A DNA stretch of 64,000 nucleotides from Cupriavidus metallidurans CH34 (lineage in GTDB: Bacteria > Pseudomonadota > Gammaproteobacteria > Burkholderiales > Burkholderiaceae), in the NCBI RefSeq assembly GCF_000196015.1, contig NC_007973.1:310001-374000 (forward strand), written 5' to 3'. The notes under the pieces are model-generated. The model was not told the DNA's origin. It ran no database searches and was given only the letters and a program-made list of their open reading frames with translations. The translations under genes and the position numbers were made by a program. Positions 23,925-41,119 of the stretch are shown in pieces; position 1 is the first letter of the stretch, and each line of letters opens with the position of its first letter.

Positions 23925-24470
23925 ATGGCATCGGTCAACAAAGTCATTCTCGTCGGCAACCTGGGCGCCGACCCCGAAACCCGCTACATGCCCAGCGGCG
24001 ATGCCGTGACCAACATCCGGCTGGCGACGACCGACCGCTACAAGGACAAGCAGTCCGGCGAATTCAAGGAAGCCACCGAGTGGCACCGCATCGCGTTCTT
24101 CGGCAAGCTGGCCGAGATCGCCGGCCAGTACCTGCGCAAGGGTTCGTCGGTCTATATCGAGGGCCGCATCCGCACGCGCAAGTGGCAGGACCAGTCCGGT
24201 CAGGACAAGTACAGCACCGAAATCGTCGCGGACCAGATGCAGATGCTGGGTGGCCGTGGCCAGGGCGGTGGCGGCGATGAAGGCGGCTACGGCGGTGGTG
24301 CCGGTGGCGGTGCGGGCGGTGGCGGTGGCTACAGCCGCGAATCGCAAGGCGGCGGTGGCCGCAGCCAGGGCGGTGGTGCCCAGGGCGGCGGTCAGCAAGG
24401 CGGCCAGCGTCGCCAGCAACAGGCACCGTCGAACGGCTTCGAGGATATGGACGACGATATTCCGTTCTAA
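23925..24470 (+). CDS. ssb: Single-stranded DNA-binding protein
   Basis: 181-residue SSB. The N-terminal OB-fold (residues 1-110, [20 protein letters not shown]), a glycine/glutamine-rich linker (about 112-168) and the acidic partner-binding tail ending DDDIPF are complete. It coats single-stranded DNA in replication and repair. GGAG precedes the start. Its terminator is the left boundary of the genomic island. Confidence 0.97.
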
Positions 24471-24529: not shown

Positions 24530-24545
24530 AATCAGTATCTTATGG
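24513..24545. repeat. Left boundary repeat (candidate attL)
   Basis: GCGGGGTTTTTCTTTT plus ATCAGTA and TTATGG blocks match 36075-36107 in 29 of 33 positions. It comprises the descending arm and T-run of the ssb terminator. Interpreted as one end of a recombination site, although sharing of a terminator-like sequence could have another origin. Confidence 0.55.
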
Positions 24546-24702
24546 GCGGTGGTGCATTGGAAAGATTTGAGGGCGGATCTCCGGCGGCGTGTGAAATTTC
24601 CGTCCGGAAGCGGAAGTGTCAACTTTCGACGTCCTAACGCGAAAATCTTAGTTAGGATTCTCAATGTCTAAACTGAGTGCGGCTAAGACCGCATAAATGT
24701 AA
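24546..24702. other. Non-coding left end of the island
   Basis: No gene. It contains an inverted repeat TCCTAAC / GTTAGGA (24632-24638 and 24651-24657, 12-base spacer), a layout that would suit recombinase arm or core binding sites, but this is only a suggestion. Confidence 0.35.
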
Positions 24703-25569
24703 ATGCGCGCTGGCATCTGCAAACTGACGGGGCAGCATGGCATCTTCCTGAAGTCCCACATCATTCCTGCTGCCCTCACTCGGAAGGACAAGTCTGCCCC
24801 GTTCATAGAGGCGGGCAACGGCCGCCCTCCTAAGCGAACCTGGAACAGTTGGTTCGATAGCGAGTTGGTAATCCAGCGCGGCGAGAAGATCCTCACCGAG
24901 TTCGACACCTGGGCCATTGCAAACATGAGGCGGGCAAAGCTGGTATGGAGCGGTTGGGGAGAAAGCACCGTTCTTGAGCCGTCAATGGACTTCAGCGCGA
25001 CCCATCAGCTCCTTGAGGAGCATGACAACCATCTTGGCGTGCATTCGATTCAGGGCATCGATACCGCCCGACTTCGGCTCTTCTTGCTCAGCCTTCTCTG
25101 GCGGGCGGCGGTAACGAAGCGGCCAGAGTTTGAGGAGATCAAGCTGCCTGCGGGCGACGAGCAGCAACTACGCCGCATGCTGTTGGAAGGGACTGCGGAG
25201 CCCGCGGATTTTTACCCCATCACGCTCACGCAACTCTCCACCTTGGGCCCTCATCACAATCAAACACCCATCTATCGGGACTATCACTTCGGCCCTGACG
25301 CCGAACGCGGACTTCCGCCGGCGAAGACCTATCGTTTCTACTTTGATGGACTGATTGCAATCGTGTTCCTGCCGGGATACTCGCCCGATCTGTACGAGGG
25401 GATCTCAGCCATTGCAGTAGGAGGGAAGCCAGACCGACTGGACGTGGTGACCGTGCCATTTGAGCACTCCTTCCAGCATGAAAATATGGGTAAGGTCGTT
25501 CTGGAGGCGCACACCAACTGGCCGGAAAAGTCCGAGCGCCTAAACATGGCGGGCGGAAATCGTGCGTAA
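24703..25569 (+). CDS. Hypothetical protein with HNH-like N-terminus
   Basis: 288-residue protein of unknown function. The N-terminus CKLTGQHGIFLKSHIIPAAL resembles the opening of small HNH-type proteins (a cysteine followed by KSHIIP) but has only one of the usual paired cysteines. The rest looks soluble and mixed alpha/beta. It is the leftmost island gene, 187 bases before ginA, on the same strand. A decayed copy of its last 30 codons occurs at 36127-36218, outside the right boundary. A nuclease or defence role is possible but not shown. Confidence 0.65.
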   Translation: MRAGICKLTGQHGIFLKSHIIPAALTRKDKSAPFIEAGNGRPPKRTWNSWFDSELVIQRGEKILTEFDTWAIANMRRAKLVWSGWGESTVLEPSMDFSATHQLLEEHDNHLGVHSIQGIDTARLRLFLLSLLWRAAVTKRPEFEEIKLPAGDEQQLRRMLLEGTAEPADFYPITLTQLSTLGPHHNQTPIYRDYHFGPDAERGLPPAKTYRFYFDGLIAIVFLPGYSPDLYEGISAIAVGGKPDRLDVVTVPFEHSFQHENMGKVVLEAHTNWPEKSERLNMAGGNRA

Positions 25570-25756
25570 TGGCAGTTGGGGGGCAGCCGTTGTCCGCTGC
25601 TCTCAACCACAGAAGCTGAGCCTAGCAGGCAGTAGGCCGTTGAAAGCTGGGCTCGAACACTGCCATATTGGACTCCCAGTGCGAGATTGCTTCGTGACAC
25701 GGAAAAGTCGTAAACATTGCCTACGGTAGTTGGGATGCGTCGGCCGAAGGAGCCCC
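25570..25756. other. Leader region of the gin operon
   Basis: 187 bases between the HNH-like gene and ginA with no gene. GAAGGAG lies 6-7 bases before the ginA start. No promoter could be assigned confidently. Confidence 0.35.
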
Positions 25757-26953
25757 ATGCACACCCGATTCCATATGGTAGTGGTCCGGCACCGGGACGG
25801 CGAACGCCTGCCGATCCTTCTGGACGCAGACCGGCAACCTATTGGCTGGATCAATGAGTATGCGATTCAGCGGCTGCGTTCGCGGCTTTCGGCCAACAGC
25901 CTGACTAAGACACTGCATGTCCTCGGGCTGCTGTGGCTGTGGGCGGTCCAGCATTCCATTCCGCTGCAGGTTAGATTGCTTGCCGGCGACGGCCTCTCAT
26001 CTGACGAGATTGCCAGTCAACTCTATCCTTGGTTAAGGCGCGACTTCCAATCGCGAGTGGCGGTACGCCGGCTGGTCGTCGCCCCGACTACCGTAGCGCA
26101 GCGTCTGCAGGTCGTCATGCAATTCGTTCGTTGGCATCTGGAAAGGGTTATGGCCCGATTGCCGATTGGAAGCCCGGAGCTGAGCCACGTCAGGGAGCGA
26201 CTGACCACGATGCAGCGCACGTTCGCCACGGCCGGGCCAAGGCGGGCCGAACCGGTACATCATGCGTCGCCGCTTTCCGAGGAGCGGGTGAGTCGCCTCC
26301 TGAGCATCTGCCGTCCCGGCAATGATGAAAATCCCTGGAAGGCTGCGTATCAGGACCGCAATTACGTCATCGTATTGGTACTGTTGTTGTTGGGTATCCG
26401 GCGGGGCGAACTCCTCAAACTACGGGTTGCGGACTGCGTCCTATCGGGTACGATTCCGGAGATTCGGGTCGAGCGCTCGCCCGACGACGCGAAGGACCCT
26501 CGTCGCCATGAACCCCAGGTGAAGACAGAATCGCGCCAGTTGCCTTGCGATCGGGCGCTGGCTTCACTGCTGAATGCCTATATCTGTCGTACGCGTCGAG
26601 CGATACCGGGGGCAGACAAAAGTCCGTTCCTGTTCCTGAGCCGAGATGGCGCGCCGATGAGCCTGTCTCGCGTCAATGGCTTGCTCACCCAGGTGGGCGC
26701 TGCACACGCTGAATTCCGCGATCTGCACCCGCACTGCCTGCGCAGCACGTGCGCGACGAACTTCCGAGCGCGAGCACTGCGGACGGGCCTGGACGAGGAG
26801 CGCGTCGAGAAGCACATGATGTACTTCTTCGGCTGGCGCTCGTCGGATTCCATCCGCCCTTACGTTTGGCACGCGATCAGGCGGGAGTCCTGTGAGCTCA
26901 GCCTTGCGTACCAATCGACGATCTTTAATGCGTCGATGACAGGTATCGAATGA
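25757..26953 (+). CDS. ginA: Tyrosine recombinase GinA-like
   Basis: 398-residue site-specific recombinase, first of the operon. Catalytic elements visible: R215/R216 in GIRRGELLKL, H326-x-x-R329 in HPHCLRST, W360 where many family members have histidine (FGWRSSDS), and the nucleophile Y369 in RPYVWH. The N-terminal SAM-like core-binding region spans about 30-165. ATG 25757 has GAAGGAG upstream; the longer frame lacks one. The stop overlaps the ginB start by 4 bases (ATGA). The Gin name is by gene order and size, not by alignment. Confidence 0.8.
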   Translation: MHTRFHMVVVRHRDGERLPILLDADRQPIGWINEYAIQRLRSRLSANSLTKTLHVLGLLWLWAVQHSIPLQVRLLAGDGLSSDEIASQLYPWLRRDFQSRVAVRRLVVAPTTVAQRLQVVMQFVRWHLERVMARLPIGSPELSHVRERLTTMQRTFATAGPRRAEPVHHASPLSEERVSRLLSICRPGNDENPWKAAYQDRNYVIVLVLLLLGIRRGELLKLRVADCVLSGTIPEIRVERSPDDAKDPRRHEPQVKTESRQLPCDRALASLLNAYICRTRRAIPGADKSPFLFLSRDGAPMSLSRVNGLLTQVGAAHAEFRDLHPHCLRSTCATNFRARALRTGLDEERVEKHMMYFFGWRSSDSIRPYVWHAIRRESCELSLAYQSTIFNASMTGIE

Positions 26954-27460
26954 CGAACGCCGAGGTCAATCGCGCAATCATGTCGTTGCTGCGAAAGAAC
27001 AAGCTTCCACCGTTGCCGAGCTACGTCATCGACCGAGATGGCCGTCGTATGGAGATGAGTGGAGCGTACTGGAAGTTCAATGTGCCGACCAGCAACGTCG
27101 CGTTTCACTGGGACAGGCAGTCGGACGGAAGCGCCGTAGTGGGCTACGCGTTGCGTCGATGGGCATCGATGCTAATGATGCGGCTAGCGAGCCGGAGCGT
27201 CATGAATGCGTTGACCAAAGTGCTAGGGGCCCTGAGAGGAAGGTCCTCAGGCATCGGTACGCAGGGGCAGCCGCTATTGGAACAGTGGCGAGCCTTGGCA
27301 TCGGTGGAGCAGACGGAAGACCTGAAGGTAGCATTGTGTCGGCATGTCGAGACAACTGTTCGCGCGCTACGGGCCAGAAAGGCGATGGACGAGTTTTACC
27401 TTCTGCGAAGCTGGTATCGCTGGTCCGCAACAATGCTCGCGCGCCTGGGGTTCTGTGCGT

Positions 27461-27502
27461 GAGCACGAGATTCGATGGATGCGCGAGCACGGTAATTGAT
27501 GG
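27461..27502 (+). repeat. Left-end transposase-binding repeats
   Basis: Two 18-base repeats, 27461-27478 (GAGCACGAGATTCGATGG) and 27485-27502 (GAGCACGGTAATTGATGG), 24 bases apart. They match two copies at the other end. Subterminal repeats of this kind are typical transposase-binding sites. Confidence 0.6.
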
Positions 27503-27640
27503 TCGGCTGCGGCACCGTCCATCACCAATGTTGCGTGCCGTCGGGCAACGCTGATGGACGTGGCGATCTATCGCGGTGGACCGGATGCGGAGCAGCGGCA
27601 CTGATGTAACAAGGGGCCCGGCGGGCCCCTTGTTACTGGA
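27503..27640. other. Transposon left non-coding end with hairpin
   Basis: No gene. A perfect 12-bp hairpin AACAAGGGGCCC / GGGCCCCTTGTT with a 3-base loop occupies 27608-27634, seven bases after the stop of the last transposon gene. It has no T-run, so it may block transcription or protect the mRNA end rather than act as a classical terminator. Confidence 0.5.
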
Positions 27641-27913
27641 TCAGAAGTCGTTATCTGCGAGATCGCCAAGGCCATCAGGATGCTCCTGCCGATCTTCGGC
27701 CAGCCACTGGGCCAAGGCCAATTGATAGTGAGCATGCAGACGGTCGCGCAGATCGTCGAGCAATTCGATCACAGCCCAGGCCTGCGCGGGCGTCCAGTTG
27801 GCATCAATGAGCAGGGGCAGCCCCTGGGCGATGCCGGATGGCTGGTGGAAGGTCATGGTGATGTCGTCGTTGTGTTGATGGACGTGGCGGCGATGGCCAA
27901 CGGCGCCACTCAC
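27641..27913 (-). CDS. Small transposon accessory protein
   Basis: 90-residue protein of unknown function, last gene in the transposon operon. A GTG start at 27913 overlaps the ATPase stop (GTGA), suggesting translational coupling; an internal ATG would give a 71-residue form beginning MTFHQPSG. The core WTPAQAWAVIELLDDLRDRLHAHYQ is helical and the tail acidic (DLADNDF). Small proteins of this kind often accompany ExeA-type ATPases in transposons. Confidence 0.65.
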   Translation of the reverse strand: MSGAVGHRRHVHQHNDDITMTFHQPSGIAQGLPLLIDANWTPAQAWAVIELLDDLRDRLHAHYQLALAQWLAEDRQEHPDGLGDLADNDF

Positions 27914-28743
27914 CGCCTGGCGCGGCGGTTCAGGGTTGCGCTGTAGGTTTCCAGATAGAGCTTCTCGTCGATCTGCGGTAGCTCCCGCTGCGCGGCCTGG
28001 GCCAGAAGCTCGCCCGCCAGGTTCATCAGGATGCGGTAATTGCCGGCGGCGTGCTCACACAGGGTCTGGCGCAATGGCATGGTCATCAGGGTGGCGTTGC
28101 CGGCGGCGGCCAGCAAGTGGTCCAGGCAGGCCTGCAGCTCGTCGATGCTCGCACTCTCCAGCGCCAGACGGCAGCGGATGCGGCTGCCCAGCGGGATCAG
28201 GTCCTCGCGGCTGAACTTCTCCGGCAGGCGAGCGTCGCCGGCAAGCACCACGCACAGCAGCAATTGCGAGTCGAAGCGTGCCTGTGCGAGCAGGCGCAGT
28301 TCCGAGAGGGCTGGCACCGCCATCTCCTGGGCTTCATCGATGAGCAGCACGCAGCGGCGGCGGCTGGCCTCCATGTGGGTGAGCCAGCGCTCGCGCAGCG
28401 CCTTGAAGCCGCCCCAGCGATTGTGGGGCTTGAGCGGTACGGTAAAGATGTCGCTGAGCTCGCGATAGAAGTCCGCCAGATTGCTCTGTGGGTGAGCGAT
28501 CGAGCCGACCATCAGATCGGGGACGCGCATGAGGCGCTGATGGAGCAGGCGCAGCGTGACGCTCTTGCCGCAACCGGGGTCGCCATGCACCATGGCGAAG
28601 CCGCCTTCGCGGGCCATACCGTTCTCAATGCGCCAGCAGAAGTGATCGAGCTTGGGTGGCACGAACACGGCCTCGACGGGGATGTCCTGGGCGAAGGGGT
28701 TGAACTTCAGACCGTACAAGGCCAGCAGGTTGGGTTGATTCAT
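27910..28743 (-). CDS. ExeA/TniB-like AAA ATPase of the transposon
   Basis: 277-residue AAA ATPase. It opens with YGLKFNPFAQDIP, the ExeA-family lead. Walker A GDPGCGKS is at 54-61 and Walker B VLLIDEAQE at 132-140. Proteins of this family (TniB, TnsC, IstB, MuB analogues) bind DNA, select the target and activate the transposase. Its start overlaps the transposase stop by 4 bases. Confidence 0.85.
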   Translation of the reverse strand: MNQPNLLALYGLKFNPFAQDIPVEAVFVPPKLDHFCWRIENGMAREGGFAMVHGDPGCGKSVTLRLLHQRLMRVPDLMVGSIAHPQSNLADFYRELSDIFTVPLKPHNRWGGFKALRERWLTHMEASRRRCVLLIDEAQEMAVPALSELRLLAQARFDSQLLLCVVLAGDARLPEKFSREDLIPLGSRIRCRLALESASIDELQACLDHLLAAAGNATLMTMPLRQTLCEHAAGNYRILMNLAGELLAQAAQRELPQIDEKLYLETYSATLNRRARR

Positions 28744-30179
28744 AGCTTGGTGGGTGCGGGTGGGAGATAGGCCGGCGGCAGGCCGGTGGCGGCGTGTTCG
28801 GCGAGCAACTGACGCAGCAGCGGCGCAGTGCCAGCCTGCGCGGGTTCCTCGTTAGCAGGCGAGGCACCCTTGGCCGTGAGATGCGCGCGCCGTGCGTCGG
28901 CATTGGCAGACTTGTCCAGCGGGAACACGGCGGCCAGGATCGCGCCGATGCGCGCATCGATCAGGTCGACTTGGGAGAGATCCCAGCGCGCGTAGCTCAG
29001 GCAGACTTGCTCGAGGTGGCGGTAAGCGCCGGGGATCTCGAAGCGCACGCCGTCCAACGTGAAGGTGCCGTCGGTTCTGCGCTGGCGGCGATGCTGGCGG
29101 ATACGGAAGGCCCGGCGCAAGGCCAGCGCCTCGGGACTGGGGCGCGAGACGTCGGCACAGGACAGGTAGCGCTGCAGAGGCGTCGCCTCGAGTTCGGCGT
29201 GTTCCTTGTGGTGGTATTCCTGCTCGACCCAGGCCTGCGTGGCGAGGTTCAATTGCTCCAGGGTGAGGTGCGACTCACCTTCGAGCATGGCCATCAGCCG
29301 GGACTCGAGCTGTCCCCAGAAGCGTTCCTGCTTGGCATTCTGGTATGGGCTGTAGGGCAAGGTAGTCTGGTGCAGGATGCCCAGACTGGCCAGCCCCTCG
29401 ACGAACTCGTCGGCCATCATGGCTGCGCCGTTATCGGTCATGATGGCCCGCGGCAGCCCTCGCTTCATGATCGCCTGCGAGACGCCGTGCACCAGCGAGG
29501 CAGTGGTCTCGTCGAGGAACCACTGCAGGTGGCAGACCAGCCGCGAATGGTCGTCCATAATGCAGAGCAGCAGCGGCTTGTGCCACTGCCCATCGGGGGT
29601 GAGCACCTTGCGCGAACCATGGTGGAAGTCCAGGTGCCAGAGCGCGGCCACGTGGTCGACCTCGTAGCTACGCACCTCGCGTGCCTCGCGGCGAGCCGCA
29701 GCAGCGATGGCCCCATCCGTGCTCGAGCGCGGGGTTGGCTTGCGCACCAGACCCTGCGCCTTCAGATACCGGCACACCGTGGTGTAGGACGGCAGCGTGT
29801 CCGGGCCATCCTTGGTCGCGACGCGCAGGTTGTCGTAATGCAACTGCATGGTCCAGCCGGGGTGCTGACGGTACTGCTCGACCAGCGCTTCGATGATGGC
29901 TGGGCTCAGACTGACGAAGTGGCCGCAATCGTCGCGCAGTCGGTTCTTGAGTTGATCGACCGGATCCTGGACGTGACGGGCCCGGTAATACCAGCGTTCG
30001 ATGGAAGACGCGCCGAACTGAACGTCGGCGCCGGTGATGGGGTGCCGCCAGACCTTGGCGGCCAGTGCCTGGAACGCTTGCTGCAATTCTCCTTTGGCAG
30101 GCGGCGAAGCCAGCAAAGGGCCAATGACCGAGAAGCGCAAGCGCGCCCATCGGTTGCGATGATCAATCGATAGTGACAT
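28740..30179 (-). CDS. DDE transposase (Mu/TniA-type, rve core)
   Basis: 479-residue transposase. An N-terminal HTH-rich region (about 1-150) is followed by an integrase core with D184 (WHLDFHHGS), D249 (AIMTDNGAAMM) and E285 (NAKQERFWG), a DD-x35-E arrangement. The C-terminal domain (about 370-420) resembles the Mu transposase C-terminal beta-barrel. It catalyses strand transfer at the TGT/ACA ends. Length and intact triad suggest a functional enzyme. Confidence 0.9.
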   Translation of the reverse strand: MSLSIDHRNRWARLRFSVIGPLLASPPAKGELQQAFQALAAKVWRHPITGADVQFGASSIERWYYRARHVQDPVDQLKNRLRDDCGHFVSLSPAIIEALVEQYRQHPGWTMQLHYDNLRVATKDGPDTLPSYTTVCRYLKAQGLVRKPTPRSSTDGAIAAAARREAREVRSYEVDHVAALWHLDFHHGSRKVLTPDGQWHKPLLLCIMDDHSRLVCHLQWFLDETTASLVHGVSQAIMKRGLPRAIMTDNGAAMMADEFVEGLASLGILHQTTLPYSPYQNAKQERFWGQLESRLMAMLEGESHLTLEQLNLATQAWVEQEYHHKEHAELEATPLQRYLSCADVSRPSPEALALRRAFRIRQHRRQRRTDGTFTLDGVRFEIPGAYRHLEQVCLSYARWDLSQVDLIDARIGAILAAVFPLDKSANADARRAHLTAKGASPANEEPAQAGTAPLLRQLLAEHAATGLPPAYLPPAPTKL

Positions 30180-30290
30180 GACTCTCCGTTGGGGGGATAA
30201 CGGGAGCAGGCTACGGGCAGTGCGGGTGACCCGCCATCGACATGTTCTGCGGGAGATTCCCCTATCTGGCGCATCCCTCAGCCAGCGTGG

Positions 30291-30860
30291 TCAGGCCGGG
30301 CCCAGCAGCAGAAGCAACACCGCGGCCAGACGCTCGTCTTCGCTGTCGTGCTCGACCGATTGCAGCAGGCAGTCGGGATAGATGAACGGCTCGGGCGTTG
30401 GCGGGATGAGGCCACGCAGCCACCGACCGACGGGGGTCTTGGGGAAGGTCTCGGTCCACCACTGACGCCAGCGCTTGAGCGTGGCCCAACTGATCGCCGG
30501 CAGGCCGTCCAGGCAGGCGCCAGTGGCACGGCTCGATCGCAGTACCAGGACAATGGCCAGCCAGACACGCCGGCCGAGAAAGCGCACCGAATCGGGCGTC
30601 ATGCGTTTGCGGCATCCGGCACAGCACAGGCTCAGGCGCGTATTGCAGTCCGGGTGTGCTGCCGGTGGGCATCCGCGCGGCTTACGCGGATAGTTGGCAC
30701 TGTGCAGCACAGAGCCGCAATGGCAGCAGCCCCTGTCTCGCGCCACCTTCATCAAGTCTTCGTCGATCCGGCGCAACAGGGCAAAAAACGCTGGCGTTTG
30801 TAGCAAGGCATGGCACACTGCTGAGGTCTCCTTCATTGCTCGACACAATAAAGGCGACAT
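30291..30860 (-). CDS. Zinc-ribbon transposon protein
   Basis: 189-residue protein with two CxxC-type knuckles (CCHCGS near residues 45-50 and CCAGCRKRM near 78-86) forming a likely zinc ribbon, then a helical C-terminus. Reading starts at ATG 30860; an internal ATG at 30836 (MKETSAV) is also possible. It lies 111 bases upstream of the transposase on the same strand. It may bind transposon ends or the target, or regulate the operon. No named family was recognised. Confidence 0.7.
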   Translation of the reverse strand: MSPLLCRAMKETSAVCHALLQTPAFFALLRRIDEDLMKVARDRGCCHCGSVLHSANYPRKPRGCPPAAHPDCNTRLSLCCAGCRKRMTPDSVRFLGRRVWLAIVLVLRSSRATGACLDGLPAISWATLKRWRQWWTETFPKTPVGRWLRGLIPPTPEPFIYPDCLLQSVEHDSEDERLAAVLLLLLGPA

Positions 30861-30861
30861 C

Positions 30862-30898
30862 TTCCCTCAGGCGCGTGCATGCACGCTCCCTGAGGGAA
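30862..30898. promoter_or_regulatory. 37-bp near-perfect palindrome at transposon right end
   Basis: Outer arms TTCCCTCAGG / CCTGAGGGAA enclose the perfect inner palindrome GCGTGCATGCACGC. It lies 2 bases upstream of the zinc-ribbon start, where the transposon operon promoter should be, so an autoregulatory operator is a reasonable guess. Confidence 0.55.
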
Positions 30899-30910
30899 CC
30901 CCTCCAGCGT

Positions 30911-30970
30911 CCATCACCGTTCTTGCTCAAATCCCCACGCTTTCGGCATCACGAAAGCTGCTTATGCACA
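30911..30970 (-). repeat. Right terminal repeat with transposase-binding sites
   Basis: Read from the right tip inward: the terminal TGTGCATAAGCA, then two 18-base sites at 30946-30963 (AAGCAGCTTTCGTGATGC) and 30911-30928 (GAGCAAGAACGGTGATGG). Together with the two left sites the consensus is (G/A)AGCA-N8-GATG(G/C). Confidence 0.6.
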
Positions 30971-32115
30971 GTTCGATGAGCAATTCGCGCTTGAATTGGA
31001 TGAGGTCTCCATACCCGCACGCTCCTCCAAGCTCGCGGTGGAGTTGGAAGATGAAGAGCGCGGGCCGCTCTGGGACACGGAAGTGGCTGTTCTACGTGCG
31101 GCACTGGCAAGTGACCGCTCGCAGGAGCGGGCGCACGTGATGCAGCGTGCAGCGATTGCGTTGAGCCTAGCATATGGTCGGAATCCATCGAACTATTGCC
31201 TCCTAAGGGAGGAGGATCTGTCAAACCAGTTGGCCGGGTTCGACGTGCCCCCACAGTGGATATTGTCCATTCCCCGCATCAAGAAGTGGGGAATTGGTGT
31301 GCGCCAGCAGTTTGCGCAAGAGCGGGTGAGCAACGATCTGTTGCCGTTGATACATGAGCTGCTGGCGGCCAATGGGAGTATCGATTGCAAAGGCTACCCG
31401 CGACCGCTGTTTATGCGTGACAGTGTGGACGAATGGCGGGCCGATACCGGTGTCGAAGAGTATGCGTATCACATGACGGGGAAGGAGTTCTTGGCGCTCA
31501 TACGGGGATTCGCTACGAGAATGGCAATCGAATCCCCGCGTACCGGAAGTCAGCTTCGCTTGAGTTCACGCCGCTTGCGGTACACGTTTGCCACGACGAT
31601 GGTGGAGCTTGGCGCTTCCAAGACCGTGCTCGCGACGATGTTGGACCATTCCGATACGCAACATGTACGGGTCTACTACTCGCTGAAGGGAGCGCGGCTG
31701 ACTCGCATTCTGGATCGCGCTGCTGCGTTGCGGCTCGGCCCCCTCATGAAGCTGTTCAAAGGGACGCCCATTGGAGTGGATTCCGAAGCGGCAAAGGACA
31801 CTCGCCAGGAAAAGAGAGTTCGCTTCGTGGGGGATGTGGAAGTGATAGATCCGGTGGAGATCGGTGCATGTGGCCAGTCACCGCACTGCTCGTTGGATCC
31901 GCCATTCTCCTGCTACGTCTGTCCCAAGTTCCAGCCATACTTGGAGGCCGACCATCAGGCCGTACTGGATGCGCTGCTCAAAGGAAGGGATGAGCGTCGT
32001 GGTCGGCTCGGCATGCGCCTGTCAGTTCAGATGGATGAAGTGATCTACGCCGTAGCGGAGGTTGTTCAACTGGTGGCTCACCATGCCAAACGGAACGGCG
32101 GTAAGGCGTAAGACG

Positions 32116-34119
32116 ATGGCGGCCGTAGGCCGCCTGGAAGCACCCGCAGGAGACGACTGGATCGAGAACGGAAGGCAACTGATTGGCAAGGCGAAAGCTC
32201 TGATGCCGTTCGGGGATGTCGAGTGGGATGCCCCGGTCTGGGATGTCTCGGCTGCCTATGAGCATCGCACGCGAGGATACAAGGCCAATGCCCGGGGATT
32301 ACGACTGCCATTTACTCAGCACAGGCAAGCGGGGAAGGGGGTGGGCGATCCGTTGCCAGAGGGCTTTGCCGATGTCGTCAAGGCGCTTGTGTGCATGCGC
32401 CATCAAAGACGCGGCCAGTCCATGGCGAGCCACAGCGTCTTTATCCGTGCTGCACGCTACATCTGCGACGCCATCCGAGGGACCGGGCATCAACTAGGTG
32501 AGTTGCGCAAGGATGATCTGGATAGGGCGGCGACCGTGCTTCTACGCAGAGAGCGGGAGACCTCGGCATACAAGGTACTTGGCCACATGGAGGAGTTCGC
32601 CGATATGGTGGACGGATACCGGCTCAGTCGAATGAGGCTGGACTGGCGCTGCCGGCGAAAAGCACGGCCGCGGTCACTGACGCCCGACAGGATTGGAGAC
32701 CCCTCGACAGAAGTATCGGACAGGCTGCCAACAGAAGAAGCGATCCGGGCGCTTGGATGGCTCTACCAGACGATCCCGCGAGCCGAACGCCCTGACGATG
32801 GGCGCGCCGCGGACCGCACACTGATTCTGATCGCCACGATCATGGCATGTACGGGCCTGAGAGTTGGCGAGATGCTGACGTTGCCGGTGAATCCCATCTC
32901 CATTGCGAAGGATGGCAGTCGGAACCTGCGCTATGCAAGGCTGAAAGGACGGGCTGACGACGTGATGGTCGAATGGCATTCGAAGCCATTGCTATCCGAG
33001 ACTGTGGAGTTGGTGGAGGCAGCGGTGGCGGAACTGCGCGAGGCAACCGCGGGGCCGAGACAGGTTGCCCTGAAGGCCAGCCGCTGCGGATCTCTGATGC
33101 CGCGAAGTGCTCTTCCCCCAGTTCTATTCACGTCTGATCTACGAGCCGTTCTTGGGTTGAACAGTTGGAAACTTGCTCAGTTCCTGCGGGCTCGTGCGAT
33201 TCCCTTCGAAATCGTGGATCGACGGCTGCGCGTGAACCGCGATGCGCTGTGCAGAGGTATTGAGAAGGACCACTGGTTCGGACCAGTGATTCCGGGCCCT
33301 CCCAGTCAAGGCCTCAAGCTCCACCAAGCGCTATGCGTGGTCTACGCGAACCAGTTCCATCGCGGGACGCGGACGACGCTTACATATGCAGCCCGGCCGG
33401 TGTCAGACCAGAACGTGCAGGACTTCCTGGCCGGTCGGCCCGCCATCCCATCGGCGTTCGAGCGGTATGGACTCGTGGGCGAAGACGGCTTGGTACTACG
33501 TGTTCGATCACATGGACTCCGGCACTTCCTGAACCATCTGCTCGACGAAGGTGGAGCACCGGACCTGGTGCAAACGAAGTGGTTTGGTCGCCAGCATGAG
33601 GCGGATACTCGAGCCTACCAACATCTGACGGCTGCCCAGCGCGCGGCGCAGGTGGTTAAGGAGGTTCTGGAGGGAAAACTAGCGGGTGGCATCGTTGAGG
33701 TAGCCAAATCTCTCCCGCTGGAGGTAGCCAAGACATTCCTGGCCGCACGCATTCAGGCAGTCCACGATGTGGGGCCGGGTCTGTGCGTCCATGACTTCCA
33801 GATGTCTCCTTGTGAGCGCCACCTGCAATGTACGGCGAAGTGCGAGGACTACCTGTGGATCAAGGGCGAAGAGGCCAGAGCACATGAACTGAAGAGACAA
33901 GCCGCAGTGGCATACATCAGCCTGCGTACGGTGACGGCCCGCGCGCGGTCGCGATCCTTGATGCAGTCGGATTGGTATCGACACATTGCGACTCGATATG
34001 GCCAACTGATGGAGCAACTGGCCACGATAGGCTTCCATCAAGCTGATCTGGTGCGATACGTGGAGGGGTGCGGAGATGCCGACAAGGATTCGCGCGAGCG
34101 CGAAGATGAGCGAGCGTAA
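32116..34119 (+). CDS. ginC: Tyrosine recombinase GinC-like
   Basis: 667-residue recombinase, the largest of the three. Catalytic elements: arginine in CTGLRVGEMLTL, H-x-x-R-H in SHGLRHFLNHLL, and tyrosine in TRAYQHLT after WFGRQHEAD. About 300 residues precede the catalytic core and a cysteine-containing C-terminal domain follows (CVHDFQMSPCERHLQCTAKC). ATG 32116 lies 4 bases after the ginB stop; in-frame starts at 32062 or 32083 would overlap ginB. It overlaps ginD by 44 bases. Confidence 0.8.
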   Translation: MAAVGRLEAPAGDDWIENGRQLIGKAKALMPFGDVEWDAPVWDVSAAYEHRTRGYKANARGLRLPFTQHRQAGKGVGDPLPEGFADVVKALVCMRHQRRGQSMASHSVFIRAARYICDAIRGTGHQLGELRKDDLDRAATVLLRRERETSAYKVLGHMEEFADMVDGYRLSRMRLDWRCRRKARPRSLTPDRIGDPSTEVSDRLPTEEAIRALGWLYQTIPRAERPDDGRAADRTLILIATIMACTGLRVGEMLTLPVNPISIAKDGSRNLRYARLKGRADDVMVEWHSKPLLSETVELVEAAVAELREATAGPRQVALKASRCGSLMPRSALPPVLFTSDLRAVLGLNSWKLAQFLRARAIPFEIVDRRLRVNRDALCRGIEKDHWFGPVIPGPPSQGLKLHQALCVVYANQFHRGTRTTLTYAARPVSDQNVQDFLAGRPAIPSAFERYGLVGEDGLVLRVRSHGLRHFLNHLLDEGGAPDLVQTKWFGRQHEADTRAYQHLTAAQRAAQVVKEVLEGKLAGGIVEVAKSLPLEVAKTFLAARIQAVHDVGPGLCVHDFQMSPCERHLQCTAKCEDYLWIKGEEARAHELKRQAAVAYISLRTVTARARSRSLMQSDWYRHIATRYGQLMEQLATIGFHQADLVRYVEGCGDADKDSREREDERA

Positions 34120-34498
34120 GAAGGCCTGCATCATCGCCGAGCTTGAACGCTGGCAGGATAGGGAGTTGGGCACACGGCTGACCTGGGAGCGTGTCGAAGC
34201 GTTCTCCGGATACACCCGTCAGGCGCTGAGCCGTCATCCGGACATCGTGTACGCCTACCAGGAGGCCAAGCGCGCGTTGGCCGATAGCGACAGAAAGTCG
34301 AGGTCGCGATTGCGTCGTGACGAGCTTGCCTATCTAGATCAAACGGTTGTGAGCCTGCGGGCAAAGATCCGCTGGTATGAGCAACTTGAAGCGCAATGGC
34401 TGCAACGCTGGCAGCGCATTGCCAATCAGTGTTTGCAGCGCGGGCTTAGTATCGAGGATCTGGATCGCCCATTGGATCCATTAAACCGGAGAGGCTAG
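34076..34498 (+). CDS. ginD: GinD-like small HTH/coiled-coil protein
   Basis: 140-residue basic protein, last of the four-gene operon. The segment WERVEAFSGYTRQALSRHPD looks like a helix-turn-helix, followed by a heptad-like helix rich in K/R/E (AYQEAKRALADSD, VVSLRAKIRWYEQLEAQW). GGAGG lies upstream of ATG 34076. It corresponds by position and size to GinD of GInts and to the small TnpC of Tn554-type elements, where it aids recombination. Confidence 0.75.
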   Translation: MPTRIRASAKMSERKKACIIAELERWQDRELGTRLTWERVEAFSGYTRQALSRHPDIVYAYQEAKRALADSDRKSRSRLRRDELAYLDQTVVSLRAKIRWYEQLEAQWLQRWQRIANQCLQRGLSIEDLDRPLDPLNRRG

Positions 34499-34510
34499 CC
34501 TGTTTGGGCG

Positions 34511-34939: not shown

Positions 34940-35470
34940 CTATTGCTTGGATTGATCGGGGTAAATCTGGACGTACGGACGGTAAGAGTACAAACGGAGG
35001 CTGTTCCTTGGCGTGCCCAAGGGGTAGTCCTCAGGAGATACTACATACACGAACAGTTGCGGTCCCTTGATGTCGAAGTAGACTATCTTGTCCGTCATGT
35101 CATTCGGCAATCGGTGCCGGAGGTCGACGCTATCCTCAAAGATTTGACCGGTACTCTTGATGCGCCATTTGACATAGAGAGTATCGGCAGGACGCATACG
35201 TCCGTAGACACCTGCCTGTTGGCCAATCCGTCCCTCCTCCAACGCCCATTTCGGCGGACGTGTACCGGTCATGTCGGAGTCGCCGTAGCGATAATTCAGC
35301 ACCTCTACCGCGGGCACGGCTCCACGAGTATCAAAACTAAAGGAGTGATTGGCGGCCTTCTGAGACGAGGCACACGCCCCCAGAAAAAGCGAAGCCAGCA
35401 AAGGCATCGCCCAGTATAGAAGACGGTGCTGCACGGCGCGCTTGGGGTAGCTGGGGCAGTAGGTGATCAT
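34940..35470 (-). CDS. Putative outer-membrane or periplasmic lipoprotein
   Basis: 176-residue protein with a lipoprotein signal: basic lead KRAVQHR, hydrophobic LLYWAMPLLASLFLGAC and lipobox LGAC, cysteine about residue 34. The mature domain (VLNYRYGDSDMTGTRPPKWA, then DTLYVKWRIKSTGQIFED and KGPQLFVYVVSPEDYPLG) looks beta-rich and resembles small lipoproteins of unknown function. ATG 35470 is chosen because the shorter start would lose the basic n-region. It is island cargo, transcribed against the gin operon. Function unknown. Confidence 0.7.
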   Translation of the reverse strand: MITYCPSYPKRAVQHRLLYWAMPLLASLFLGACASSQKAANHSFSFDTRGAVPAVEVLNYRYGDSDMTGTRPPKWALEEGRIGQQAGVYGRMRPADTLYVKWRIKSTGQIFEDSVDLRHRLPNDMTDKIVYFDIKGPQLFVYVVSPEDYPLGTPRNSLRLYSYRPYVQIYPDQSKQ

Positions 35471-36053
35471 GACAAGTATCGATTGCTTAAAGCTCAGGGC
35501 AAACCTGGCCGGCTCTGAACAATCTAGCAAGGTTTCCCCCGCAACCGCGGCCAACGAAGTGGGGTGTATGAGTCGTGCAACACTGACCCTCAACTCTGTT
35601 GCGAGCAACCGCGAATCACTTGACCGGGATTTCGTCGCGATACGGCTTCGCTTGTTGCGCACGGCACTGAATGACCGATTCAGCCCAAACATCGGTCGTC
35701 CGCAAGACGGAGTTTGATAGGCAGCTCAGGGTCGGTTCCAGCCCGTCGTCGCCAGCAGGTCGGCTGCCGACGGGGCCTCATTCTGCCAGTTGCTGTTGTG
35801 CTTTATAGGGCGCTGGAGAAAGAGCCCCGAAATTGCCGAGGATTCGCGCTCAAGTGAACTCGCACGCAGCGCAAAATAGGCACACCCCCGCGCGCATCGC
35901 GCATCGATCCCCGGCCCGTCGCGGCCAATACGCCCGAATCTTTACAGTTGCCGGGCTGCCTCTCTCCGAAACCGGCTCCCCATAATGGATTGCGGTCAAG
36001 GTTTACGTTGTGACGTAACAGAACCGTTCTGAGACCTCGTAACGGAAAGCTAT
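35471..36053. other. Non-coding right end of the island
   Basis: About 580 bases without a convincing gene. It should contain the lipoprotein promoter. Near the right boundary the hexamer CGTAAC occurs twice about 24 bases apart (around 36014 and 36038) with AGAAC/GTTCT between them, a cluster that could be recombinase binding sites. Confidence 0.35.
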
Positions 36054-36089
36054 AAAGAAAAACCCCGCTTTTTTGCGGGGTTTTTCTTT
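36054..36089. terminator. Bidirectional terminator at the right island boundary
   Basis: Perfect 15-bp stem AAAGAAAAACCCCGC / GCGGGGTTTTTCTTT with a T6 loop. A-tract on one side and T-tract on the other make it symmetrical, able to stop transcription from both sides. Its right arm is shared with the ssb terminator. Confidence 0.8.
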
Positions 36090-36107
36090 TCTATCAGTAC
36101 TTTATGG
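36075..36107. repeat. Right boundary repeat (candidate attR)
   Basis: Partner of 24513-24545, with four mismatches in 33 positions. Everything to its right (HNH-gene remnant, then arsP) appears to be outside the current island. Confidence 0.55.
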
Positions 36108-36126
36108 TGGCGGTGTCTTGGGGTCT

Positions 36127-36253: not shown

Positions 36254-37447
36254 CTATGTTGTGCTGGTCTTGAGCGGAGCCGATTGCCTGACCGCCATGA
36301 GCGTCAAGATTGCCATCATGCCAAGAGCGGAAGATAACCACAGCGACTTCGCTCCGAACTGGTCCAGACACATCCCGAAAATCCAGGGTGCTAATGCTTG
36401 TGCGACCCGGGCCGGGACCATCAATACTCCCTGGCGATGACCGTAGCCGCCCGGTCCGAAAATGACCAACGGCAGCGTGCCCTTGGCAATGGTGAGGATG
36501 CCGTTGCCGGCTCCGTGCAGCACGCCGAACAAGGCCGCCGCGGGCGCTCCGACCAGGCCGAACGCAAGTGCGCCAAGGGGATGAAGTGCTGCCGCGATCC
36601 GGGCGGACAGCAAGGGGTGGACCTTGCGCAGTAGGCCGAACTCCAGAATCCGGGCGCCAACCTGCGCCGGGCCGATCAGCGCGCCCACCATAACGGCAGT
36701 GGCCAGAGACGCGCCACCCGCTTGAAGCAGCCGCGGCAAATGTGCCGCCATCGCAGTGCTGATAAACCAGGTCGCCGCGAAAACGAAAGCCAACGCATAG
36801 GAGGCCGTTCGTTGCGAACGCTCGTCAGCATGGTGCGTCAACGCGCTACCCGTTTGCGACGTAGGCCTGCTCGGTGCCGTTGCTGTGGCGGCTACGCGCG
36901 GGATGCTCAGGTTCAGCGCAAGTCCTAGCGTGAGATGCAACGCCGCCCAGGACAAGCAGGCCCCCCGCCATCCGATGTGCGCCTCCATAGAGGTGGAAAG
37001 CGGCCAGCCGACCGTGCTGGCAAAGCCAGCGATCAGCGTGATCCCGGTGATGGCGCCGCGCGAGCGATTGCCATAGAGTGCGACCAGTGTTGCGAATGCG
37101 GCTTCGTAGAGGCCGGCACCCATGCCGATGCCAAGAATCACCCATGCGGCAAAGAGTCCGACGACGCCCTGCGCCACACCTAGCCTGGCAAGCCCGATGG
37201 TGAAAACAAGACTCGTTGCCACGAGGACAGATCGCCCACCGGTACGATCGATCATCCGTCCGGCTGCAGGTCCGAGCAGTGCCGATACCACCAGCGCGAC
37301 GCTGAATGCCGCAAAGATCGTGGGCGTCGAGACGCCGAGATCCTGCGCCATCGGCGTTGCCAGCATGGCCGGCAGGTAGTACGTCGAACCCCAGGCCAGC
37401 GTCTGGGCAACTCCCAGCCTGGCAATCACGCTACTGCTCGGCTCCAT
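36254..37447 (-). CDS. arsP: MFS transporter of the arsenic operon (ArsP of CH34)
   Basis: 397-residue, 12-helix MFS permease, last gene of the arsenic operon and 18 bases after arsH. The order matches C. metallidurans CH34, where this gene was called arsP. That name is confusing: the unrelated ArsP of Campylobacter, an organoarsenical exporter, belongs to another family. An arsenical export role is inferred from position only. Confidence 0.8.
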   Translation of the reverse strand: MEPSSSVIARLGVAQTLAWGSTYYLPAMLATPMAQDLGVSTPTIFAAFSVALVVSALLGPAAGRMIDRTGGRSVLVATSLVFTIGLARLGVAQGVVGLFAAWVILGIGMGAGLYEAAFATLVALYGNRSRGAITGITLIAGFASTVGWPLSTSMEAHIGWRGACLSWAALHLTLGLALNLSIPRVAATATAPSRPTSQTGSALTHHADERSQRTASYALAFVFAATWFISTAMAAHLPRLLQAGGASLATAVMVGALIGPAQVGARILEFGLLRKVHPLLSARIAAALHPLGALAFGLVGAPAAALFGVLHGAGNGILTIAKGTLPLVIFGPGGYGHRQGVLMVPARVAQALAPWIFGMCLDQFGAKSLWLSSALGMMAILTLMAVRQSAPLKTSTT

Positions 37448-37465
37448 GGCCCGTCCTGGTTCTTG

Positions 37466-38230
37466 TTATTCCACTTCGCCGCTATCGGTATCGCTAATCT
37501 GCGCTTCGCTCTCGTGGCTCATGGCGGCCGCCGCGAGCGTCGTCGCGTTGGCCGGCGCGGCTTCCTTGCGCTCGCTGTAGCGATCGGTCAGGTAGTCGCT
37601 GCGATCGCGCACCAGTAGCGTGAACTTGTAGAGTTCTTCCATGACATCGACCACGCGGTCGTAGTAGGACGATGGCTTCATCCGCCCGCTGGCGTCGAAC
37701 TCTTGGTAGGCCTTGGCGACCGAGGACTGGTTCGGAATCGTCACCATGCGCATCCAGCGTCCGAGCACGCGCAGCGCGTTGACGGCGTTGAAGGACTGCG
37801 AGCCGCCGCACACCTGCATCACGGCCAGCGTGCGGCCCTGTGTCGGGCGAATGCCGCCCATCTCCAGTGGCAACCAGTCGATCTGGTTCTTGAAGACGGC
37901 AGTCAGCGTGCCGTGGCGCTCGGGGCTGCACCACACCTGGCCCTCCGACCACTCCGAGAGCTTGCGCAACTCAACCACCTTCGGGTGGTCGGCAGGCACG
38001 CTGTCGGCCATCGGCAGCTCGCGTGGATCAAACACGCGGGTCTCCGCGCCGAAATGTTGAAGAATTCGTTCGGCTTCCTGTACTAGCAGGCGGCTATACG
38101 AGGTCTCTCGCAGCGATCCGTAGAGCAGCAGGATGCGCGGCGGGTGTGTGCTGGCGCGTGCCGGCTCCAGCTTACTGAGGTCAGGCGTATCGAGCACCGC
38201 AGGGACAATATTGGGCAGATCCACGGTCAT
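37466..38230 (-). CDS. arsH: NADPH-dependent FMN reductase ArsH
   Basis: 254-residue flavodoxin-like protein. Core motifs [14 protein letters not shown] (FMN phosphate loop), [20 protein letters not shown] and [19 protein letters not shown] are typical of ArsH, which oxidises trivalent methylated or aromatic arsenicals. Its ATG overlaps the arsC1 stop (ATGA). The C-terminus is slightly longer than usual. Confidence 0.93.
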
Positions 38231-38649
38231 CGTATCCTCCGGCCTTGTGTGTCGATCACGGCCTCGCCGTCCTCCTTGGTGAAAGCACCTTGCTGCGGCG
38301 CCGGCAGGATATCCAGCACGACTTCCGACGGCCTGCATAACCGCACACCAAGCTCAGTGATGACAAAGGGCCGATTGATCAGGATCGGATGGGCCAGCAT
38401 CGCATCAAGCAACTGGTCGTCGGTCAGTGCAGGATCGCCGAGGCCAAGCTCGGCGTAGGGCGTGCCTTTCTCGCGGATTGCTTCGCGCACGGAGAGACCG
38501 GCGGCGCGGATCATCGACTGCAAGGTCTGCCGGTCCGGCGGCATGTTCAGGTATTCGACGACAATCGGCTCGATGCCCGCATTGCGGATCATGGCTAGCG
38601 TATTGCGTGACGTACCGCACGCGGGGTTGTGATAGATGGTGACGGTCAT
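38227..38649 (-). CDS. arsC1: Arsenate reductase, glutaredoxin type
   Basis: 140-residue ArsC of the R773 family. The nucleophile is C11 in [11 protein letters not shown], and the conserved arginines lie in RPFVITE and LCRPSE. It reduces arsenate to arsenite using glutathione and glutaredoxin. The operon also encodes an unrelated thioredoxin-type reductase. It starts 9 bases after acr3. Confidence 0.95.
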
Positions 38650-38658
38650 GGGGATACC

Positions 38659-39723
38659 TCAGTGCGATTCGTACCAGTGCTGCGAGCGGTTCACGACGCC
38701 CACTACGAAGAGCATCACCGGCACTTCGATCAGCACGCCGACGACGGTGGCCAGCGCCGCGCCGGATTGGAAGCCGAACAGGCTGATCGCGGTCGCCACG
38801 GCCAGTTCGAAGAAGTTGCTTGCGCCAATCAGCGCCGACGGGCCGGCCACGCAGTGCGCTACGCCGAGCTTGCGGTTGAGCAAGTAGGCCAGGCCGGAGT
38901 TCAACAAGACCTGGATCAGGATCGGTACGGCCAGCAGAAGGATGATCAGCGGTTGTTCGACGATGGCATTCCCCTGGAAGCCGAACAACAGCACCAACGT
39001 TGCGAGCAGCGCGGTGATCGAGTAGGGGCCGAGTGCGCCGACCACACGCTTGTACGTAGCGTCGCCTCGCACCAGCAATACCTTCCGGATGACCTGCGCG
39101 ATCAGCACCGGCACGACAATGTAGAGCGCAACCGAGGTCATCAGCGTATCCCACGGCACGGTAATCGACGACAGGCCCAGCAGCAGCGCGACGACAGGCG
39201 CGAAGGCCACGACCATGATCGCGTCATTGAGTGCCACCTGCGAAAGCGTGAAGTACGGATCGCCCTTGCAGAGCTGGGACCAGACAAACACCATCGCCGT
39301 GCAAGGCGCAGCCGCCAACAGGATCAGGCCGGCGATGTAGCTGTCGAGCTGGTCCGCCGGCAGCCAGCCCGCAAACAGATGGCGCACGAAGATCCAGCCC
39401 AGCAATGCCATCGAGAACGGCTTGACGAGCCAGTTCACGAAGAGCGTCACGCCGATGCCGCGCCAGTGGCCCGCCACCTGGCCCATCGCGCCGAAATCGA
39501 TCTTGATCAGCATCGGAATGATCATGATCCAGATCAGGATGCCGACCGGCAGGTTCACCTGAGCGATTTCCATGGCGCCGATGGTGTGGAACGCCGCTGG
39601 CAGCCATTGGCCGAGCAGGATGCCGGCCACGATGCAAAGCGCCACCCAGACCGTCAGATAGCGCTCGAAGAAGCCGATGGCACTGGGTTGGGAGGCTCCT
39701 GCCGTCCTTTGTGCCGTGCTCAT
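38659..39723 (-). CDS. acr3: Arsenite efflux permease Acr3
   Basis: 354-residue, 10-helix permease of the ACR3 (BART) family, named arsB in the CH34 cluster. The conserved cysteine of TM4 (AAAPCTAMVFVWSQL) and the NDAIM / EVPVML segments are present. It exports arsenite in exchange for protons. Its ATG overlaps the arsC2 stop by 4 bases. Confidence 0.95.
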   Translation of the reverse strand: MSTAQRTAGASQPSAIGFFERYLTVWVALCIVAGILLGQWLPAAFHTIGAMEIAQVNLPVGILIWIMIIPMLIKIDFGAMGQVAGHWRGIGVTLFVNWLVKPFSMALLGWIFVRHLFAGWLPADQLDSYIAGLILLAAAPCTAMVFVWSQLCKGDPYFTLSQVALNDAIMVVAFAPVVALLLGLSSITVPWDTLMTSVALYIVVPVLIAQVIRKVLLVRGDATYKRVVGALGPYSITALLATLVLLFGFQGNAIVEQPLIILLLAVPILIQVLLNSGLAYLLNRKLGVAHCVAGPSALIGASNFFELAVATAISLFGFQSGAALATVVGVLIEVPVMLFVVGVVNRSQHWYESH

Positions 39724-40232
39724 TGCGCGGACTCCACGGGTTGCTCGCCAATGGCGTGCATCTCCTTCTGAATGGCGTTCCGGTCCAGCACGTGCAACGG
39801 CAGGTTCACGAACTGGCTGACTCGATTCAGAATCTGCCGGAAAACCTGGGCAAATATCTTGCGCTTCTCGTCATCGGAGCCCTGTATGGCTGCCGGGTCG
39901 AGGAAGCCCCAATGTGCCGTGATGGGTGTACCTGGCCAGATCGGGCACACCTCGCCTGCGGCTTGGTCGCAGACGGTAATAACGAAGTCCATCCTGGGCG
40001 CATCGGGCAGTGCGAACTCGTCCCAGCTCTTGCTACGCAGGCCAGTCGTGTCGTAGCCAATTGCCTGGCATCGTTCGATGGCGAAGGGATTGACCGTGCC
40101 AGATGGATGGCTGCCGGCGCTGTAGGCGTGAAAGCGTCCCTTGCCGAGGACATTGAACAGCGCTTCGGCCATCACGCTGCGGGCTGAGTTGCCGGTGCAC
40201 AGCACCAGCACGTTGAAGGTCTTGTCGGTCAT
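39720..40232 (-). CDS. arsC2: Arsenate reductase, thioredoxin/LMW-PTP type
   Basis: 170-residue protein-tyrosine-phosphatase-like arsenate reductase. The P-loop is C12-TGNSA-R18, and the second cysteine pair lies in VCDQAAGEVCPIWPG. About 30 residues longer at the C-terminus than typical members. Located between arsI and acr3. Confidence 0.93.
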   Translation of the reverse strand: MTDKTFNVLVLCTGNSARSVMAEALFNVLGKGRFHAYSAGSHPSGTVNPFAIERCQAIGYDTTGLRSKSWDEFALPDAPRMDFVITVCDQAAGEVCPIWPGTPITAHWGFLDPAAIQGSDDEKRKIFAQVFRQILNRVSQFVNLPLHVLDRNAIQKEMHAIGEQPVESAQ

Positions 40233-40297
40233 GGTCGTAGGGGCGAGCGGGTGCCTCCTCGCCCGAGGTATCGGTACGGGAGGCCGTTAGCGAAAGC

Positions 40298-40786
40298 TCA
40301 GCAGCAGCCGGATTCCGGCGTACAGCAGGCGGTCTTGGTTGATGGCTTCGGCGTGGCGTTCAATTGAACCGGCACGCAGCACGCGGAGGCTTCGGCGCTG
40401 CGATCGCGCGATTCGCCATAGGTCGGCACGTTGCCGAGCGTGTGAAACGATTCCCAGGCGATACCCGTTGGGTCCACTGACCAATGCTTGTTCGAGGTCG
40501 CGTAGCAGCAGTTCGTCTCGGACTGGGACTGCATGGGCAGGTCGGCGCTGGCCAGCCGCCCCTGCATCTCGGCAAGCTCGGCATCCGTCTCCACCTGGAT
40601 CCCGAGATGATCCACGCCCAGCTTCTCGGTGCGATTGGAGATGGCGAAGTTCACGCGTGGATCGTCCAGCGCCCACTTGGCATAGTCATCCCTGACGACA
40701 GTCGGTTCTGCATCGAAGAGGGCCGAGTAATAGCGGATGCTGGCCGGCAGATCGGCCACGCTGACGTGGACGTGGAAGCGCTTCAT
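40298..40786 (-). CDS. arsI: ArsI-type glyoxalase/C-As lyase
   Basis: 162-residue vicinal-oxygen-chelate dioxygenase. Vicinal thiols C93-C94 in TNCCYATSNKHW and likely Fe(II) ligands near H7, H60 (GVDHLGIQ) and E112 (AWESFHTLG) fit ArsI, which cleaves the carbon-arsenic bond of methyl- and aryl-arsenite. The C-terminal tail adds three more CC pairs or clusters (SACCVPV, TACCTPESGCC), perhaps for metal capture. The start is 3 bases after arsR. Confidence 0.9.
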   Translation of the reverse strand: MKRFHVHVSVADLPASIRYYSALFDAEPTVVRDDYAKWALDDPRVNFAISNRTEKLGVDHLGIQVETDAELAEMQGRLASADLPMQSQSETNCCYATSNKHWSVDPTGIAWESFHTLGNVPTYGESRDRSAEASACCVPVQLNATPKPSTKTACCTPESGCC

Positions 40787-40789
40787 GGT

Positions 40790-41119
40790 TCAGGACTCCG
40801 TAGCGACTGAACAGGAGGACACCGGTGAACACGGCGCGCCGCCACAACAGTTTTCCGTGAGATAGCCCAGCAAGGCGTTCATGGTTTCGAATTGAGCCAT
40901 GTAGATGATCGAGCGGCCTTCCTGACGGCTCGCCAGCAGTCCGGCGCGGTGCAGTTCCTTGAGGTGGAACGATAGCGACGACGCTGGCATCTCCATCAGT
41001 TCGGCAATACGGCCAGCCGGCAGCCCTTCGGGGCCGGCCTGCACAAGCAGGCGGAAAACGGCCAGGCGGATGCCGTGGGCCAGCGCGGCGAGGGCTTCAA
41101 GAGCGTTTTCGGTTTCCAT
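40790..41119 (-). CDS. arsR: Arsenite-responsive repressor ArsR
   Basis: 109-residue winged-helix repressor. The recognition helix is in ASSLSFHLKELHRAGLL. The arsenite site is the C-terminal cluster C91-C92-x4-C97 (plus C103), the arrangement known from the Acidithiobacillus ferrooxidans type rather than the CVC-helix type. It controls the operon arsR-I-C2-acr3-C1-H-P. The start codon lies inside its own operator/promoter; see 41110-41154. Confidence 0.95.
   Translation of the reverse strand: METENALEALAALAHGIRLAVFRLLVQAGPEGLPAGRIAELMEMPASSLSFHLKELHRAGLLASRQEGRSIIYMAQFETMNALLGYLTENCCGGAPCSPVSSCSVATES

Follow-up and report, generated by a model that had tools for sequence, protein, structure and literature searches.

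Insertion of Tn6049 into ginB of a GInt island at the ssb gene of Cupriavidus metallidurans CH34, and the likely stranding of the island

What becomes of a mobile island when another mobile element lands in one of its own recombinase genes? This question is raised by a 64,000-nucleotide stretch of the Cupriavidus metallidurans CH34 genome (positions 310001-374000 of contig C3, one of four contigs; here called the window), in which an island of the GInt type, carrying the genes ginA, ginB, ginC, and ginD, is located at the 3' end of the host gene ssb, and in which a copy of the transposon Tn6049 lies within ginB. An earlier note, made from the letters alone, had proposed that a transposon inserted at 27450..30974 splits one continuous recombinase, that the event looks recent, and that it has probably immobilized the island. 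The explanation that we favor overall, at a probability of about 0.85, is that a GInt at the ssb 3' end received Tn6049 in ginB and was thereby stranded, the transposon itself being active. The features of the locus are collected in Table 1.

The insertion at these positions is borne out, with a 3517-bp element standing between two copies of GTTC. The element starts with TGTGCGTGAGCACG and ends with GCTGCTTATGCACA, and 10 of the 12 outermost bases match between the two tips, which fits a 12-bp imperfect terminal inverted repeat. The CH34 genome holds 12 copies of Tn6049 (seven on the first replicon, three on the second, and one on each of two plasmids), the number and distribution already published (PMC2864759). 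All 12 are 3517 bp long and have no mismatches to the window copy; because they are base-identical and share the same ends, chance can be excluded as the source of the element boundaries. Copies with different ends, which the earlier note had named as evidence against its proposal, were not among them.

Were the two parts of ginB once a single gene? Continuity was judged with the two GinB pieces as separate alignment rows, and the homologues aligned across the junction were 16 out of 114 proteins matched by the right-hand piece. The pieces abut without gap or overlap in all 16. They also abut base for base in two related genomes that read straight across the junction, namely those of Cupriavidus agavae (1482-1985, then 1986-3113) and Paraburkholderia mimosarum (9476-9979, then 9980-11113). 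The best of the 114 matches, P0001, is an uninterrupted protein of 546 residues, which is the sum of the two pieces (168 + 378); it is 99% identical and differs at 2 of the 546 residues. One of these differences is a Pro where the window and the other 15 aligned homologues (15/15) have an Arg, which we take to be the first catalytic arginine of the recombinase motif. The insertion does look recent, as had been proposed, because the element is identical to 11 further copies and both halves of ginB remain open, at 2/546 residues from the uninterrupted allele.

Table 1. Coordinates of the ssb-linked island, the inserted transposon, and the adjoining arsenic region (positions in the window)
Feature	Position	Strand	Details
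ssb (single-stranded DNA-binding protein)	23925..24470	+	From the list of open reading frames (ORFs); host gene, last codons and stop are the attachment site
attL core CCGTTCTAA	24462..24470	+	Overlaps ssb stop codon
ORF	24703..25569	+	288 aa; between attL and ginA; no Pfam match
ginA, tyrosine recombinase (PF00589)	25730..26953	+	407 aa from TTG; ATG at 25757 likelier start
ginB 5' part	26950..27453	+	168 codons; frame enters transposon for two codons, stop at 27462
Target-site duplication, left copy (GTTC)	27450..27453	+	ginB/Tn6049 boundary
Tn6049	27454..30970	-	3517 bp; within ginB; identical to 11 further CH34 copies
Tn6049 small ORF	27641..27913	-	90 aa; no Pfam match; hypothetical WP_008651547.1 in pHS87a annotation
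Tn6049 AAA+ ATPase ("gspA", AAA_22)	27910..28743	-	277 aa; profile match to MuB
Tn6049 DD35E transposase	28740..30179	-	479 aa; nearest NCBIfam model IS481, below cut-off
Tn6049 cysteine-rich protein	30291..30836	-	181 aa; two CxxC pairs, conserved RWRxWW; "transposase" in pHS87a annotation
Target-site duplication, right copy (GTTC)	30971..30974	+	Tn6049/ginB boundary
ginB 3' part	30975..32111	+	378 codons + stop; carries PF00589 match
ginC	32062..34119	+	685 aa from TTG; ATG at 32083 likelier start
ginD	34076..34498	+	140 aa; 70% identity to P. mimosarum, 59% to C. agavae
Cargo ORF	34940..35692	-	250 aa; no Pfam match
GInt 3' end and attR core CCGTTCTGA	35866..36032 (core 36024-36032)	+	End sequence common to C. 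agavae and P. mimosarum
Displaced copy of ssb terminator region	36039..36115	+	75% identical to 24477-24551
Arsenic operon	36254..41119	-	Outside attR; within published CMGI-7, not within this GInt

Is the interrupted island a GInt? Its genes overlap in the order ginA, ginB, ginC, and ginD, with ginB present though split, which is the gene order of a GInt, and the cores CCGTTCTAA and CCGTTCTGA form the imperfect repeat expected of GInt att sites, 9 bp long with 8 matching. The gin proteins are 46-70% identical to their C. agavae and P. mimosarum relatives (65% to P. mimosarum and 57% to C. agavae for GinA), GinC matching the C-terminal part of PF00589 only, and the final bases ahead of attR, ending AACAGAACC, are common to the islands of both species. 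In GInts generally, GinC is expected to lack the first catalytic arginine, GinD to end in a helix-loop-helix, and the island to excise as a circle. Relatives match the ssb stretch and then diverge; the tip of the C-terminus of the window SSB reads DDDIPF, presumably the conserved SSB tip. The gene is Rmet_0315, "ssh" in the list of flanking genes in PMC7019866. By this organization the CH34 island at the ssb stop is a GInt, with ginABCD and predicted attL and attR sites at 24462 and 36024; once the transposon and one GTTC are subtracted, its length would be about 8.0 kb. Not all four gin genes are intact, with ginB interrupted after codon 168, but this is damage in a GInt member and not evidence against descent from GInts.

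Close relatives of the island are few. The right-hand GinB piece matches 7 of 60 genomes of the genus, CH34 included; the C. agavae genome, in which all four gin genes are open frames, gives the sole close match (65%), and the other five lie at 27-31%. In the stretches fetched from six relatives (L112, L113, L114, L115, L119, and L120), the same ssb end had no DNA match to gin genes alongside. The beginning of the C. agavae contig that carries the GInt coincides exactly with the att core and overlaps the ssb contig by 95 bp (head of L010, tail of L111), and the other end of that contig is exactly the second att core. These ends look like a branch in the assembly graph, as if circular or tandem forms might have been present in the reads.

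What would the split mean for mobility? In a tested GInt, excision and integration both depended on each of the four gin genes (PMC5385486). Because of this, and because a search of the CH34 genome found one ginB and one ginC, the GInt has likely lost its mobility in CH34. In the GInt located at the 3' end of ssb, one Tn6049 copy interrupts ginB at GTTC with a 4-bp duplication, so that 168 residues of GinB fall on the N-terminal side of the break and 378, with the recombinase domain match, on the other. Without intact GinB there would be neither excision nor integration, and the island would stay stranded at ssb. Tn6049, for its part, would be an active DDE transposon, helped perhaps by a MuB/TnsC-like AAA+ ATPase and by one or two accessory proteins.

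One might object that ginB never was a single gene and that its two pieces are separate genes with a transposon between them. Both pieces are open frames today; against this stand the continuity across the exact junction in 16/16 aligned homologues and two genomes, and the duplication that bounds the element, so that we find the objection hardly credible. A more serious alternative, which we nevertheless consider rather doubtful, is that the GInt was dead or idle before Tn6049 arrived and that the island was decaying anyway, with the insertion as a neutral passenger. Immediately beyond attR there are the ars segment and a relic of the 288-aa gene, as might be left by the accumulation and decay of older elements at ssb; the cargo from ginD to the 3' end amounts to only about 1.4 kb; and in the P. 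mimosarum relative GinC is matched twice, in overlapping stretches that differ in frame, resembling a frameshift. However, no stops interrupt the frames of ginA, ginC, ginD, or either half of ginB, and attL, attR, and the common 3' end are all present.

Conversely, the GInt might still be mobile, with GinB supplied in trans by another element or with the recombinase-domain fragment being sufficient by itself. Internal starts can allow expression of genes that surround a transposon, and the right-hand piece does carry a PF00589 match. Yet the genome search turned up no further copy of ginB or ginC, the split falls inside a continuous conserved protein, and any single gin mutation abolished detectable excision in the tested GInt (PMC5385486); continued mobility thus seems very improbable. 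We therefore retain stranding by Tn6049 as the preferred explanation.

The earlier note had also suggested that further copies of the element would be found with 4-bp duplications. The same ends were indeed found, but the duplication is 4 bp at only one of the 12 CH34 copies, namely that in ginB; it is 5 or 6 bp at 10 and 2 bp at one. To these we added 12 sites beyond the CH34 set (L065, L071, L073, and L075-L083), giving 24 independent sites; L065 and L073 are Tn6049 relatives that are not identical to it, L084-L086 were excluded as the same sites as CH34 copies, and four of 16 plasmid records (H1, H13, H15, and H16) and the second and third places in multi-copy records were left out. The additional sites have a duplication of exactly 4 bp at seven, 5-7 bp at four, and none at one. 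Over all 24, it is exactly 4 bp at eight, 5-7 bp at 14, 2 bp at one, and absent at one, so that short direct repeats of at least 4 bp accompany Tn6049 at 22/24 sites. The length of the duplication thus differs from site to site. A fixed 4-bp duplication was rejected: were it always 4 bp, the probability of 14 of 22 appearing longer by chance would be about 1e-4 (1e-3 at 30% per base).

Is the transposon still active? The copy on pHS87a, a plasmid of Pseudomonas aeruginosa, is base-identical to the window copy over 3517 bp and is flanked by GCAG, the 4-bp repeat reported for it (PMC4739549), which we see there too. Base-identical copies occur on plasmids of P. aeruginosa and Cupriavidus pauculus. 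That Tn6049 may still be active, as the earlier note suggested, is plausible because of these plasmid copies together with the 12 identical copies in CH34.

Two CH34 copies (G000:C3:2168337-2178113) are separated by only 2742 bp and are oppositely oriented; each is flanked by a separate duplication of 5 or 6 bp, and the left one interrupts a tyrosine recombinase gene. Such a close pair speaks against strong local target immunity, without excluding immunity.

The gene content of Tn6049 is in keeping with a DDE transposon. The catalytic triad of the transposase is present at the residues that had been claimed (D184, D249, and E285). Annotated records label this protein as IS481 family, although it scores 129.3 bits against the NCBI curated cut-off of 224 and so does not qualify for membership. 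For the ATPase, a profile search of the PDB gave MuB as the best match (E 7e-4), followed by ShTnsC at an E of 0.07, which is not significant alone; a single-sequence search of the PDB gave no match, and in comparison by fold ORC/Cdc6 scores above MuB/TnsC. The similarity is weak and faintly suggests an ATPase of the MuB/TnsC kind. The predicted structure of the protein P0116 is weak, with a predicted local distance difference test score of 68. The left tip of the transposon recurs once, 24 bp inward (27454-27491), with 11 of 14 bases matching; this repeat is perhaps a second transposase-binding site.

Does Tn6049 favor such targets? Five of the 12 CH34 copies interrupt mobility genes, that is, three tyrosine recombinases, a relaxase, and a DUF4158 protein, the last presumably the N-terminal part of a Tn3-type transposase. 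Other copies interrupt or abut genes for a porin, a PIN-domain protein, an MmgE/PrpD protein, a TctC receptor, and an MFS permease; by Pfam, one flank had no match and one a sub-cut-off match only. The insertion in the CMGI-5 relaxase has already been published (PMC7019866). With 36 matched open frames (some scoring under the cut-off) making up 0.6% of the genome, finding 3/12 copies in tyrosine recombinase genes has a P of about 5e-5, or 0.013 if only 1 Mb of accessory DNA accepts insertions, in a test chosen after the data were seen. Outside CH34, none of 23 sites (14 judged by Pfam, mostly on the right flank alone, and nine on plasmids by annotation) falls in a recognized tyrosine recombinase gene, which counts against a preference; three of them touch other mobility genes (L063, L065, and L077). 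Some recombinase sites may have been missed, because 9 of the 11 copies in the Cupriavidus genome G037 have no Pfam match at the junction. The preference for recombinase genes is suggestive in CH34 only, and we think it unlikely that Tn6049 preferentially lands, or is retained, in the recombination genes of mobile elements as a natural immobilizer of islands.

The G037 copies (L060-L070), with a transposase 96% identical, are unusual in another respect: 10 of 11 have no left end of the usual kind at the distance where it would be expected. Nine of the 10 carry one of two common stretches at that place, and in L062 and L067 the stretches lie in open frames for tyrosine recombinases; the remaining copy, L061, gave no Pfam match. 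A similar arrangement is on record, in which RIT elements have inserted into relatives of Tn6049 (PMC3414803). The left end was also not found in L072, and L074 yielded no usable ends.

Where does the island end? Beyond attR, the CH34 order is the displaced copy of the ssb terminator, then a relic of the 288-aa gene, from its 3' end (36132-36214, 78% identical to 25478-25562), and then the ars operon. We considered and rejected the operon as cargo of the CH34 GInt: attR precedes arsP, and in L112, L113, and L114 arsP directly follows ssb with no gin match between, a ginA fragment lying beyond the ars genes in L114. Within the island, part of the short cargo stretch has a 93%-identical counterpart in another Cupriavidus genome. 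The relic just beyond the right end hints at an earlier element at the same site, and the ars operon may be relic cargo, since in C. agavae it lies between ginD and the GInt 3' end, that is, inside the island. From these arrangements we infer that GInts may have arrived at ssb repeatedly, the ars stretch being a possible relic.

The case is clear and tidy, yet ordinary. In CH34, a model bacterium, it amounts to a clean knockout of a single gin gene made by nature, and the comparison with a relative possessing unbroken ginB offers a ready test of whether GInts beyond Pseudomonas need GinB. It also redraws CMGI-7, in that the mobile unit of CH34 stops before the ars operon that the C. agavae island includes, and it weakly suggests a place for the gspA ATPase among transposition regulators such as MuB and TnsC. 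Tn6049, CMGI-7, the GInt type, and the ssb target were already known. In the available passages of the open literature on Tn6049, on CMGI-7 and CMGI-8, and on GInts with Cupriavidus, a scope that leaves aside supplements and the 2009 Van Houdt paper, an insertion of Tn6049 splitting ginB in CMGI-7 is not reported; a literature query on ssb islands found nothing.

How, then, does the locus compare with known systems? The transposon is the Tn6049 of CH34 and pHS87a, by base identity over 3517 bp, published copy numbers, and GCAG repeats. The published passages on Tn6049 do not mention the variation in duplication length from site to site that is found here. In 2018, its transposition module was called uncategorized (PMC6210171), whereas a MuB/TnsC-like ATPase is weakly suggested here. 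CMGI-7, published as Rmet_0317-0333 and 15.4 kb (PMC7019866), is the same locus by position and neighbors, and its range spans the gin operon and the ars genes; the att sites differ from it in placing the GInt at 24462-36032, with the ars operon left outside. Published array data show CMGI-7 at a 100% signal in 10 of 16 columns (PMC3384475). The island shares with the GInts of Bardaji et al. 2017 (PMC5385486) the ginABCD order, with three recombinases and a small fourth protein, an attL that overlaps the ssb end with the ssb product unaltered, and imperfect att repeats, and the ssb end is the published target of other GInts. It differs from them in its interrupted ginB, in a cargo of about 1.4 kb without the transposon versus 2.5-70 kb, in att cores of 9 bp (8 matching) versus 10-17 nt, and in the 288-aa ORF between attL and ginA. 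RIT elements, which CH34 also possesses, likewise have three adjacent tyrosine recombinases, but of 315-410 aa (PMC10214605) versus about 407, 546, and 685 aa here, and the CH34 island is set apart from them by its fourth gene and its targeting of ssb.
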